Of a DNA stretch of 64,000 nt, positions 18,358 through 42,992 are shown in pieces (the first letter of the stretch is position 1; every line of letters begins with the position of its first letter). Origin of the DNA: an uncultured Candidatus Actinomarina sp. (GTDB lineage Bacteria; Actinomycetota; Acidimicrobiia; Actinomarinales; Actinomarinaceae); assembly GCA_902555985.1 (NCBI GenBank), contig CACDUI010000002.1, positions 62,001 to 126,000 of the forward strand. The letters are read 5' to 3'. A model generated the notes under the pieces. That model worked only from the letters and a program-made list of their open reading frames with translations. It was not told the origin of the DNA and did not search any database. A program made the translations under genes and the position numbers.

Positions 18358-18380
18358 CTTAGGCGCAAATATAGCCTAAG
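18358..18380. terminator. inverted repeat between convergent genes, possible bidirectional terminator
   Basis: CTTAGGC, a nine-base loop, then GCCTAAG (perfect 7-bp stem). It overlaps the stop of the minus-strand gene. Flanks are moderately T-rich for the minus strand only, so termination is more credible there. Confidence 0.45.
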
Positions 18381-18798
18381 ACAGAGTAAGAACTAATACC
18401 GGAATTTTCCTTGAGGTTCTTAGTTGATAATTTGAATAGCCACCTTTATTCATATAGTCCATTTTGTGCCACCACTCGTCTCTTTCATCATCAAAAATTT
18501 CTCTTGCGATTGCATTATATCTATTTCTTCCAATTTGGATTTCACACTTTGGATTTGATATTAAGTTATGATACCAGCCAGGATTAGTCGGGCTACCACC
18601 TTTGGATGCTACTAAACATATTTGGTCTGCTTCTTTCAAAAATACAAGTACATTTTTTCGTAATAAATTTGTTTTTGCCCCTGTCGAGTAGAGGATTAAA
18701 CATGGTCTTCCTTGGAGAAGTTTACCAATTCTTCCATTTGAATAGATATATATATAGTTGTGAAAAAATAAAAAAAGAAATATTAGATATCTTCTCAT
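18376..18798 (-). CDS. Ddn-like deazaflavin(F420)-dependent nitroreductase family protein
   Basis: A 140-residue split-barrel protein of the nitroreductase/Ddn family. The signature LLQGRPCLILYSTGAKTN followed by VASKGGSPTNPGWYHNL is diagnostic. Family members use reduced F420 for reductions; the physiological substrate here is unknown. The N-terminus is strongly hydrophobic and aromatic (LIFLFLFFHNYIYIYS), suggesting membrane attachment, as reported for the mycobacterial protein. It overlaps the photolyase gene by 4 nt. F420 supply is supported by cofG/cofH at 40046-42992. Confidence 0.85.
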   Translation of the reverse strand: MRRYLIFLFLFFHNYIYIYSNGRIGKLLQGRPCLILYSTGAKTNLLRKNVLVFLKEADQICLVASKGGSPTNPGWYHNLISNPKCEIQIGRNRYNAIAREIFDDERDEWWHKMDYMNKGGYSNYQLRTSRKIPVLVLTLS

Positions 18799-19994
18799 AC
18801 TTTTAATTTAATCTTTTTCTTCCATGAACTGTAGCTAGAAGGATAAAAATTTATTGGTTCTACGAGCCTTGGTGCTGGGAATTCTACTGAGGGAATATTT
18901 TGCTTAGTTATTTCTCGATACTTTGGTACTGGTGCAAAAGTAGATGCAAAATTTTTATTATTAAGATATTCTTTTGGATCAGTTAAATGAACCTCTAATT
19001 CTTTTTTATCATTTATTTCCTTTAAACAATCCAATATAAAATTTATTCTTTTGGTAGATAGTTGTAGTTTATTAAGTAATTTGACATCGAATATAAAGAC
19101 TATAGGTAGTTCATTGTAATAACTTACTGCAGGATCACCGTCTCCTAATGATTCTCCAGTGATCCAAACAAAAGATGGTTTACTTTTTTCATTTTCTATT
19201 GTGAATTGTGGTCCAAATATTCTTTCATTGTGTAGATCTATATCAATTTCTAATTTCTCAGTGATTGATGTTTGTGGCCATTCCTGGATGGGGCAGTTGT
19301 TTTTTAATTGGCAGTTATTACATAATTCTGGCGCTCGTTTCTCAACTTGAAATTTTGAAAATCCGTATGGCTTTCCAGTTTGTGAACCCATTACCCATTG
19401 CCATCCAAGCCTATTTGAAAATCGTGAACCATCAATAAGATGTTTAAACATATAATCCTCTGATTCATTCCAGTTTGTACCTTTTCTTAATGAGTTATGT
19501 GACGCGTACCACATTCGAGTTTGGTTAACCATGTATCCTGTAGTTTCTAGCTCTTCTTCAATTGTTGATATACATTTCATTCCTTCATATAAATGCTTAT
19601 TTAAATTTGGTATTTCAACTTTATAATTTAAATAATTTGATGATTTTTTTCCAACTATTGCATAAAGATGTCTTGAAAACTCTTGCCATAAGAGCTCATC
19701 ACGGAATTTTGACTTATCTTTATATTCAAAGCTATCAACAGCATTCCAAACATCATTAAGACTTAGTAATCCATGTCGAATATATGGTGAAAGATAAGAA
19801 GACCCTCTTTTACTTTTTGGGTATACGTTATTTCTCTTAGTTGAGTATCTATCGATATTTAATTGATTTAGCGCAGTATCAGCATTAGATTGGCCACCTT
19901 TTAAAAAAGGAATAGTGTAATTATCACAGCACAAATTTTCAAAATACTCATCTATTATCTGTTCATTTTCTAATTGAAGATTGATTAAAGACAT
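18795..19994 (-). CDS. photolyase/cryptochrome-family protein with swapped domain order
   Basis: 399 residues. Residues 1-235 match the photolyase FAD domain, which is normally C-terminal: YLSPYIRHGLLSLNDVW, RDELLWQEFSRHLYAI, TTGYMVNQTRMWYASH and HLIDGSRFSNRLGWQWVMGS. Residues 273-365 look like the alpha/beta antenna domain, which is normally N-terminal: FVWITGESLGDGDPAVSYY, PIVFIFDVKLL, then KRINFILDCLKEI. Cysteines 225, 228 and 234 (CNNCQLKNNC) could belong to an iron-sulfur site. The likely role is light-driven repair of UV lesions, or photoreception. It lies 9 nt after the cold-shock-like gene and overlaps the Ddn-like gene. Confidence 0.8.
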   Translation of the reverse strand: MSLINLQLENEQIIDEYFENLCCDNYTIPFLKGGQSNADTALNQLNIDRYSTKRNNVYPKSKRGSSYLSPYIRHGLLSLNDVWNAVDSFEYKDKSKFRDELLWQEFSRHLYAIVGKKSSNYLNYKVEIPNLNKHLYEGMKCISTIEEELETTGYMVNQTRMWYASHNSLRKGTNWNESEDYMFKHLIDGSRFSNRLGWQWVMGSQTGKPYGFSKFQVEKRAPELCNNCQLKNNCPIQEWPQTSITEKLEIDIDLHNERIFGPQFTIENEKSKPSFVWITGESLGDGDPAVSYYNELPIVFIFDVKLLNKLQLSTKRINFILDCLKEINDKKELEVHLTDPKEYLNNKNFASTFAPVPKYREITKQNIPSVEFPAPRLVEPINFYPSSYSSWKKKIKLKV

Positions 19995-20003
19995 TAAAAT
20001 TAT

Positions 20004-20219
20004 TTAATATTTGTCTTGTCCAATTCGGATATTTACAATCGTTGGTATTTCTTCTCTTTGCTCAATATCAAAGTTAACTCGTTGTCCTTGCCTAAGTGTC
20101 CTAAATATGGAACCTTTTAAAGATCCGGGAGCTAAAAAGACTTCAGTTTTATCAGTGTCAAGAATGACAATTCCATTTCCCGTATTGGGGTCATAGGATT
20201 TAACAACGCCTTGAGCCAT
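20004..20219 (-). CDS. cold-shock-domain-like small protein
   Basis: 71 residues with a CSD-like beta-barrel layout: GVVKSYDPNTGNGIVI, EVFLAPGSLKGS, then GQRVNFDIEQ. The aromatic positions of RNP1 (KGFGFI in CspA) are replaced (TGNGIVI), and RNP2 (VFVHFS) reads VFLAPG, so nucleic-acid stacking residues are largely lost. The start overlaps the rpmB stop as TAATG, so it is translated with L28. A role in RNA or ribosome contacts is possible but not shown. Confidence 0.75.
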   Translation of the reverse strand: MAQGVVKSYDPNTGNGIVILDTDKTEVFLAPGSLKGSIFRTLRQGQRVNFDIEQREEIPTIVNIRIGQDKY

Positions 20220-20455
20220 TAAACTTTTTCGCCCCTAGTTCTAATTTCTTTAACTACGGACTCTATTCCACGTCTATCAATAATTTTGTTGCCTTTTGTA
20301 CTGACTTTAAGTTTTACCCATCGATTTTCGCTTCCAAGCCAATATTTTTTGGTCTGTATATTTGGCTTAAACCAACGATTATTTCTTCTATGGGAGAAAG
20401 AAACACGTTTACCTGATTTAGGTTCTCTTCCAGTTACTTGACATCTGTTCGCCAT
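20219..20455 (-). CDS. rpmB: 50S ribosomal protein L28
   Basis: 78 residues, starting [20 protein letters not shown] and ending in a basic [10 protein letters not shown] tail; the [14 protein letters not shown] segment is diagnostic. Only one Cys is present, so it is a zinc-free form. AGAGGA precedes the ATG at 20455. It is the first gene of a minus-strand transcript that continues through the CSD-like, photolyase and Ddn-like genes, linking translation with DNA repair expression. Confidence 0.95.
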
Positions 20456-40045: not shown

Positions 40046-41167
40046 ATGACAGATTTAACAAGAAATATTAATAATTCAATCTTTGGATCTATCTCTACTG
40101 ATGAACTTCTAGCTAAAGCTTTTGAGAAAAAAATTGAATACTTCGGCAAAAATATAACATATAGCCCTAAAGTATTCATTCCATTAACAACTATGTGTAG
40201 AGACAATTGTGGATATTGTACTTTTGTAAAGTCACCTAAAGAAGGGGGAACTTATTTAAATCTAGAAGAAGTTCTTTCTATAGCAAAAGCTGGTGATGAT
40301 TCGGGATGTTATGAAGCCTTATTTACTTTAGGAGATAAACCAGAACTTAAATGGGATTATGCTTTGACTCAACTTCAGGAATTAGGCCATTCATCAACAC
40401 ATGAGTATTTAATTAGTTCAATGAAAAATGTAAATGAAAAATATAATTTATTTCCCCATGCAAATCCTGGTTTGATGACCCAACAAGAAATTAAGGAGTT
40501 AAAAGAATACTCTCCGTCTGGGGGAATTATGATTGAATCATTTTCTAAAAATATTTATGACAAGGGAAAAGCCCATTACAAAACAGGAACAAAATACATT
40601 GATTTAAGATTAGAAACTCTTAACAATGCACTTTTAGAAAAGTATCCTGTTACGACTGGACTACTCCTTGGTTTAACCTCAACAAAAGACGAAATTGTAA
40701 ATGATATTTCAAATTTAATTATTTATTTAAATGAGAACTTAGCAATACAAGAAGTAATACTGCAAAATTTCAGAGCTAAGAAAAATACTTTAATGAAAAA
40801 TAGTTCAGAAATAACAAATGATTTATTTTTAAGAATCATTGCAACTACTAGGATTTATGCACCTTCACATATTTCTATTCAAGTTCCTCCCAATCTTTCA
40901 CCAGACATAAATATATTTTTAAAAAGTGGAATTAATGATTTAGGTGGTATATCACCAATAACAATAGACTGGGTCAACCCTGATCACTTATGGCCAAATA
41001 TTAAAAATTTAAAATTAGATATTTCAAATACAGGGCAGAAACTTAAAAAGAGGCTTCCTGTTTACCCAGAATTCATAAAAAAAGAATGGTTAAGTAGTAA
41101 AATATTTGAGAAAGTTAATAATATTGTTGATACAGATGGATACCCAAGAGAAACAAATGAATCATAA
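40046..41167 (+). CDS. cofG: FO synthase subunit CofG (N-terminal half of FbiC)
   Basis: 373 residues. The radical-SAM cluster motif CRDNCGYC (Cys51, 55, 58) is in MCRDNCGYCTFVKSPKEGG, and the C-terminal part includes KKRLPVYPEFIKKEWL. FO synthase (CofG+CofH) makes the deazaflavin chromophore of F420 from tyrosine and a pyrimidine intermediate. In most Actinobacteria CofG and CofH are fused in FbiC; here the reading frame stops at 41167 and the second gene overlaps by 11 nt. There is no Shine-Dalgarno sequence near ATG 40046. Confidence 0.93.
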   Translation: MTDLTRNINNSIFGSISTDELLAKAFEKKIEYFGKNITYSPKVFIPLTTMCRDNCGYCTFVKSPKEGGTYLNLEEVLSIAKAGDDSGCYEALFTLGDKPELKWDYALTQLQELGHSSTHEYLISSMKNVNEKYNLFPHANPGLMTQQEIKELKEYSPSGGIMIESFSKNIYDKGKAHYKTGTKYIDLRLETLNNALLEKYPVTTGLLLGLTSTKDEIVNDISNLIIYLNENLAIQEVILQNFRAKKNTLMKNSSEITNDLFLRIIATTRIYAPSHISIQVPPNLSPDINIFLKSGINDLGGISPITIDWVNPDHLWPNIKNLKLDISNTGQKLKKRLPVYPEFIKKEWLSSKIFEKVNNIVDTDGYPRETNES

Positions 41168-42992
41168 TATCTCATTTCTAAGAATAAGACCGTGCGATAA
41201 CGATAATGAAATATATTTAAATTCTAGAAAAAAAGAGGGTACTTCGGGATTCTTATTAAAGGAAGAATTAAATCTTAATTTAAATCAAATACATAAAAAG
41301 GGTTTTCAAACTTTATCAAAAAATTTAGAAGATGATTCTGATGTATGGTTGATTAAAGATGATAATTGGAAAAATTTTAAAGAGATTAATCCAAAAAGAT
41401 TAATTTACTTATTCAAAAACAATAAGGAGAGTGCACTTGAAGTTATAGATAGATTAAGTCCTCATACAATATTGATATCAAAAACAACAGATTTAGATTT
41501 TATAAAATCAATTAATACAAAAGTTAACTTCATGACATCTGTATATGTAGACACAATTGAAGATGCAATTAAATTTATAAGTAGTGGTGTCTCAGACCTT
41601 CTACTAAGAGATTGGAGTTCTGAGCAAATTGAAGAACTGCAAGAAGTTGAAGGTTTAAATCTTTACGAAAGAACTCTTTTATCTCCAATATTTTCTGTTG
41701 ATGAGGCTAGAAATGAATTTGATAAAGAGAGATATTTCAGATATCTGAATACAAGAAATGTCCGAGGCTTTAGAAGAGAATATACAGAATGGTCACCGGG
41801 TAGTGGAAAAAATATCCCTAAATTAAACAATTTTGTATTTAATAATAAGAGCCAAATCTATCATTCTGATGTAGACGCAATATTAAAAAGTGTATTAGAT
41901 GGTTACCAAATATCGGATGAAGAACTCAAACTACTTTTTAATACAGCTGGCGAAAAAATAAATGATATAGCAAATGTTGCTAATCATTTAAATTTTATCA
42001 AAAATGGAAATAATGTAACTTACGTCATCAATCGAAATATAAATTATACAAATCAGTGTTATTACAAATGTGGTTTTTGTGGATTCTCTAAAGGTCCAAA
42101 TAGCTTGAATCTTAAAGAAAAACCATACTCTATAGACATTGAAGAAGTGGTAGCAAGGTCTTCTGAAGCATTTGAGATGGGTGCATCAGAGGTTTGTTTA
42201 CAGGGAGGAATACACCCAGATTACACTGGAGAATTCTATTTAAAAATGGTCAGAGATATAAAAGATGCAGTCCCTGACATGCACATACATGGCTTTACTC
42301 CTCTAGAAATATGGCAAGGTGCAGAAACTATCAATATGGGGATAGAGGAATATTTAAAACTACTTAAAACTGCTGGACTAAATACATTGCCTGGCACAGC
42401 TGCAGAGATACTTGATGACAGAGTAAGAAAATTTTTATGTCCAGATAAAATAACATCAGCTCAGTGGGCTTATGTTATGGAAGTTGCTCATAGTTTAGGA
42501 ATTAAATCTACAGCAACAATTATGTTTGGCCATATAGATGATATAGATTCTTGGGTAAATCATTTTTCATTAATTAGGAATATACAAAAAAATACTGGCG
42601 GATTTACTGAAGTAGTTCCTCTTCCTTTTGTCCATATGGGTTCGCCAATATATCTACAAGGCAAGAGTATGCCGGGTCCAACTTGGGATGAAGTAATTCT
42701 TGTACATTCTCTTGCTCGGATTTATTTTGCAAATGTTATCGACAACATTCAAGCTAGTTGGGTTAAGTTAGGACATGATGGTGCAGGTAAGCTTCTTCAT
42801 GCTGGAGTGAACGATCTTGGTGGAACCCTCATAAATGAAAACATAAGTAGGGCATCAGGTGCTGATCATGGTCAAGAGACAACACAAAATGAATTTATTC
42901 AAATAATTAAATCAAATAATAAAAATCCTGTTTTAAGAAATACGCTTTATACAGATTTAAAAGAAACAAAAAGTATTTTAGAAAATAGATGA
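41157..42992 (+). CDS. cofH: FO synthase subunit CofH with extra N-terminal domain
   Basis: 611 residues from ATG 41157 (a TTG at 41106 would add 17). The CofH domain starts near residue 260: TYVINRNINYTNQCYYKCGFC with the Cys-x3-Cys-x2-Cys of radical-SAM enzymes, then VPLPFVHMGSPIYLQ and NDLGGTLINENISRASG. Residues 1-215 are additional; I see an alpha/beta pattern (RLSPHTILISKTTDLDFI, VYVDTIEDAIKFISSGVSDLL) that could be half a TIM barrel. Domain identity unknown. It overlaps cofG by 11 nt and trmD by 4 nt. Confidence 0.92.
   Translation: MNHNISFLRIRPCDNDNEIYLNSRKKEGTSGFLLKEELNLNLNQIHKKGFQTLSKNLEDDSDVWLIKDDNWKNFKEINPKRLIYLFKNNKESALEVIDRLSPHTILISKTTDLDFIKSINTKVNFMTSVYVDTIEDAIKFISSGVSDLLLRDWSSEQIEELQEVEGLNLYERTLLSPIFSVDEARNEFDKERYFRYLNTRNVRGFRREYTEWSPGSGKNIPKLNNFVFNNKSQIYHSDVDAILKSVLDGYQISDEELKLLFNTAGEKINDIANVANHLNFIKNGNNVTYVINRNINYTNQCYYKCGFCGFSKGPNSLNLKEKPYSIDIEEVVARSSEAFEMGASEVCLQGGIHPDYTGEFYLKMVRDIKDAVPDMHIHGFTPLEIWQGAETINMGIEEYLKLLKTAGLNTLPGTAAEILDDRVRKFLCPDKITSAQWAYVMEVAHSLGIKSTATIMFGHIDDIDSWVNHFSLIRNIQKNTGGFTEVVPLPFVHMGSPIYLQGKSMPGPTWDEVILVHSLARIYFANVIDNIQASWVKLGHDGAGKLLHAGVNDLGGTLINENISRASGADHGQETTQNEFIQIIKSNNKNPVLRNTLYTDLKETKSILENR

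Follow-up and report, generated by a model that had tools for sequence, protein, structure and literature searches.

Gene and domain order

The window analysed here, a 64-kb stretch of a Candidatus Actinomarina genome assembly (1.03 Mb, 26 contigs), carries a photolyase-family gene on its minus strand (Table 1). The encoded protein has a catalytic flavin adenine dinucleotide (FAD) domain at the N-terminus and an antenna-type alpha/beta domain at the C-terminus, which is the reverse of the order in class I photolyases. A first-pass annotation of the DNA had proposed this order, and with it a domain swap, from short motifs, all of which we found at the residues given. The order is borne out by a Pfam match in the N-terminal half and a profile match of the C-terminal half, and the swapped arrangement recurs in independent genomes. 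A copy with 91% identity is present in the Candidatus Actinomarina genome AG-447-I21.

Table 1. Positions in the window of the photolyase gene, its parts and its neighbours
Feature	Position	Strand	Basis or remark
Inverted-domain photolyase gene (Phr6/SPL/NewPHL class), 399 aa	18795..19994	-	Open frame, no internal stop
N-terminal FAD/catalytic domain, residues 1-240	19275..19994	-	PF03441; residue comparison with 13 class I photolyases
Cys141, first of four invariant cysteines	19572..19574	-	27/27 homologues
Cys225, Cys228, Cys234 (C-X2-C-X5-C-P), remaining three putative iron-sulfur ligands	19293..19322	-	27/27 homologues
C-terminal antenna-type alpha/beta domain, residues 273-392, second half shortened	18819..19178	-	hhalign; PF00875 in 7/24 homologues
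Gene for an F420H2-dependent quinone reductase (PF04075); neighbour kept within the genus, separate from the enzyme	18376..18798	-	Start overlaps photolyase stop by 4 bp
Small gene with a cold-shock domain (CSD), directly upstream of the photolyase gene; neighbour kept within the genus	20004..20219	-	
rpmB (ribosomal protein L28), with which the apparent operon begins	20219..20455	-	

The FAD domain and its pocket

FAD_binding_7 (Pfam: PF03441) is the sole Pfam match in the protein and spans residues 99-208 (E 2.7e-9). Similarity to photolyases starts near residue 30-50, which leaves no space for an antenna domain ahead of the FAD domain. Pfam found neither the N-terminal antenna domain expected of a class I enzyme (PF00875) nor the DPRP/PhrB-like N-terminal domain expected of an FeS-BCP enzyme (PF04244) in the protein.

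We compared the protein with 13 class I photolyases at the positions that we take, from what is generally known of the enzymes of E. coli and A. nidulans, to form the pocket for cyclobutane pyrimidine dimers (CPDs) and the electron path. The pocket residues E100, W103, N157, M161 and W200 are kept, with E or Q at the first and M or L at the fourth of these positions across class I, and so are the electron-path residues W175, N194 and W198. The host also encodes a DPRP-type protein (L001), in which YIHHIPRLM aligns to YMVNQTRMW of the window protein. Asn157 stands where L001 has IHH, and in this stretch the window protein is thus CPD-like and not 6-4-like. It is at this position that the protein departs from the 6-4-type histidine pocket that marks FeS-BCP enzymes. 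The comparison with FeS-type bacterial photolyases made in the first-pass annotation holds for the cysteines described below and fails for the catalytic pocket, which is of the CPD type by residue mapping. Activity on CPDs is the most likely function, as judged from these residues.

Four invariant cysteines

Cys225, Cys228 and Cys234 had been suggested as an iron-sulfur (Fe-S) site. They are supported as ligands, but the set was incomplete, as Cys141 had been overlooked. All four cysteines are invariant in the 27 homologues and are also found in the Deinococcus relatives, while they are not present in class I photolyases or in the alphaproteobacterial forms. Their spacing is X83, X2, X5, compared with X84, X2, X5 in Phr4 of Synechococcus RS9916, which we computed from the published positions C169, C254, C257 and C263 (PMC9426592). 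The four residues fit a 4Fe-4S site.

Origin of the C-terminal domain

The 27 homologues were used to build a profile of the C-terminal family, which was compared with class I antenna domains by hhalign. Against ten N-terminal antenna domains of class I the profile aligned with a probability (Prob) of 96, an E-value of 3.3e-9 and a score of 59; the reversed profile scored 11 and 60 column shuffles scored at most 24. A repeat with 13 antenna domains gave a score of 61, with 40 shuffles scoring at most 17. When 24 homologous C-termini were scanned singly, DNA_photolyase (Pfam: PF00875) was matched by seven of them (best E 0.0026) and no other Pfam family was matched by more than one. A profile search of the PDB with the C-terminal domain returned weak matches with E-values of 0.1 and above, of which 10 out of 14 were photolyases or cryptochromes aligned within their N-terminal domains.

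A fuller version of the domain is found in plasmid-borne relatives from Deinococcus (L070, L071 and L076), where it is longer. The Deinococcus C-terminus matches the class I antenna domain with Prob 97 over 108 columns and the actinobacterial C-terminus with Prob 98.6 over 88 columns. From the alignment, the actinobacterial domain seems to lack the stretch that corresponds to the third helix. The C-terminal domain of the Fe-S-bearing form is thus homologous to the antenna domain and probably descends from it, for which these comparisons add evidence at the sequence level.

The C-termini of the alphaproteobacterial NewPHL proteins (L072, L073 and L077-L080), to whose group the characterised NewPHLs belong, are barely linked to the antenna domain, with Prob 8 and a score of 25 against 17 for the shuffles. 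The clearer link is that of the Deinococcus and actinobacterial forms.

Distribution and phylogeny

The inverted layout was found at full length in 35 of the 42 genomes of the order, and full-length homologues with 40-45% identity occur in about 20 of the 297 sampled Actinobacteriota genomes. As the layout recurs across the order and the phylum, it is not an assembly error. No member was found on viral contigs, for which one scan gave three ordinary photolyase-like matches (27-28% identity) and three scans gave none.

In a tree of the FAD domain, all class I sequences lie on one side of a branch with support 94/94, and the actinobacterial and Deinococcus short photolyase-like (SPL) proteins and the alphaproteobacterial NewPHL proteins lie on the other. 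The node joining the SPL and Deinococcus proteins has support 84/72, in a tree that was built without a published reference sequence of the inverted class and whose deeper order is made unsure by two long rows (L001 and L053).

Interpretation and rival explanations

With a probability of roughly 0.87, we consider the protein to be a CPD photolyase of inverted topology that belongs to the SPL/NewPHL class and whose architecture most resembles that of Phr6, the Fe-S-bearing fusion of Phr4 and Phr5 in marine picocyanobacteria. In such an enzyme, FADH- in the N-terminal helical domain would absorb blue or near-UV (ultraviolet) light and pass an electron to a CPD flipped into the pocket formed by E100, W103, N157, M161 and W200. 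The dimer would then split and the electron return, and oxidised FAD could be re-reduced by way of W198 and W175. We infer a 4Fe-4S cluster held by the four cysteines, probably with a structural role. The C-terminal domain would derive from the antenna domain, trimmed and moved behind the FAD domain, and would close over the FAD side. By analogy with its class, the enzyme may prefer single-stranded DNA.

Several observations weigh against this interpretation. Residues 273 to about 392 of the protein have no Pfam match as a single sequence, and the second half of the domain lies outside the profile alignment. Where class I enzymes have the signature W-F-R-R-D-L-R, the sequence here is W-I/L-T-G/A-E-S-L-G-D, and the binding of a pigment may be lost as a result. 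AlphaFold models of the window protein and of the 91% identical relative, built on two-sequence alignments, are unusable with a mean pLDDT (predicted local distance difference test) of 28 and 37, and our sequence search found no solved structure of the inverted class. The missing Pfam match and the unusable models, together with the marginal antenna match of the alphaproteobacterial NewPHL C-termini, are what one would expect if the C-terminal domain were unrelated and merely antenna-like, with no domain swap. We regard this as highly improbable given a profile match near E 1e-9, far above the shuffles, and given that DNA_photolyase is the only Pfam family repeatedly matched by the homologues, that most of the weak PDB matches are N-termini of photolyases or cryptochromes and that Deinococcus provides a fuller intermediate. 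Moreover, InterPro already places a photolyase domain in the C-terminal half of Phr6 (PMC9426592).

The remaining point against a CPD photolyase is that the cysteines of the Fe-S-bearing inverted form in marine Synechococcus led the authors of an mBio 2022 study to predict (6-4) activity for it (PMC9426592). The window protein shares four Fe-S cysteines with the FeS-BCP 6-4 photolyases, and Synechococcus survived UV-C less well once phr4 was lost, with no such effect after UV-B (PMC9426592). Nevertheless, a (6-4) photolyase seems improbable to us, because the pocket is of the CPD type throughout and the host already has a separate 6-4-like protein of the DPRP type (PF04244), and because SPLs, according to PMC9649867, repair CPDs and carry an Fe-S cluster. 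Next to no chance is left to an artefact of assembly or annotation, in which a normal photolyase was broken and rejoined or its antenna domain is encoded just upstream. Nothing was found in its favour, and we rejected a split gene or misassembly because independent genomes of the order share the architecture, as do distant Actinobacteriota. An antenna domain encoded nearby, which the first-pass annotation had named, for homologues, as evidence against a swap, was looked for upstream of the gene and not found; the neighbours there are the CSD gene and rpmB.

Relation to known photolyases

The inverted layout is already published, as NewPHL in 2020, as SPL in 2021 and as Phr4/Phr5 and Phr6 in 2022. 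In marine Synechococcus and Cyanobium, the FAD domain precedes the photolyase domain both in Phr4/Phr5 and in the single-gene Phr6 (PMC9426592, mBio 2022). Compared through their published description and cysteine positions rather than by sequence alignment, these proteins share with the window protein the N-terminal FAD domain, the C-terminal photolyase domain and a near-identical spacing of the four cysteines. Phr4 and Phr5 are two adjacent open reading frames (ORFs) in different frames, whereas the window protein is encoded by one uninterrupted actinobacterial gene. The Phr6-type enzyme is hereby extended to a streamlined marine lineage of Actinobacteria, in which most genomes have kept it.

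The SPL class of Xu et al. 2021, as cited in PMC9649867 and PMC9178010, has in common with the window protein the lack of an N-terminal alpha/beta domain, the CPD-type pocket and the Fe-S cysteines. Unlike SPLs as described in those citing passages, the window protein and its relatives have an alpha/beta domain at the C-terminus. The profile evidence puts the alpha/beta domain of the Fe-S SPLs at the other end of the protein, which weakens an argument from simplicity. With NewPHL (Emmerich et al. 2020, as cited in PMC13274461) the window protein shares the inverted topology and a short C-terminal domain, whereas the alphaproteobacterial NewPHL relatives (L072, L073 and others) are without the Fe-S cysteines and have a strongly diverged C-terminal domain. 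Class I CPD photolyases share the FAD domain and the pocket residues, but their antenna domain is N-terminal and they do not have the Fe-S cysteines.

Genomic context

The order rpmB, CSD gene, photolyase gene and F420H2-dependent quinone reductase gene is kept within the genus; outside the genus these neighbours were not found within the flanking sequence examined. The window also contains cofG and cofH, which code for FO synthase, and F420 synthesis has been reported to be encoded by Ca. Actinomarinales (PMC7771536). As the host encodes FO synthesis, FO is a candidate for any antenna pigment that the trimmed C-terminal domain may bind. A functional tie of the inverted photolyase to deazaflavin chemistry, through FO as antenna or through the overlapping F420H2-dependent reductase keeping FAD reduced, appears rather doubtful; we know of no photolyase whose FAD is reduced in the latter way.

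At its N-terminus the CofH ORF (41106-42992, plus strand) is extended by about 250 residues without a match to any NCBIfam model, and about 60 bp of this ORF are shared with the cofG ORF. Besides the inverted photolyase, the host genome encodes two further proteins of the photolyase family. The DPRP-type, 6-4-like protein L001 (PF04244; G000:C1:144616-144891 region) is without the C-X2-C Fe-S motif, and the other is a photolyase of the class II type (TIGR00591; L053:768-2261).
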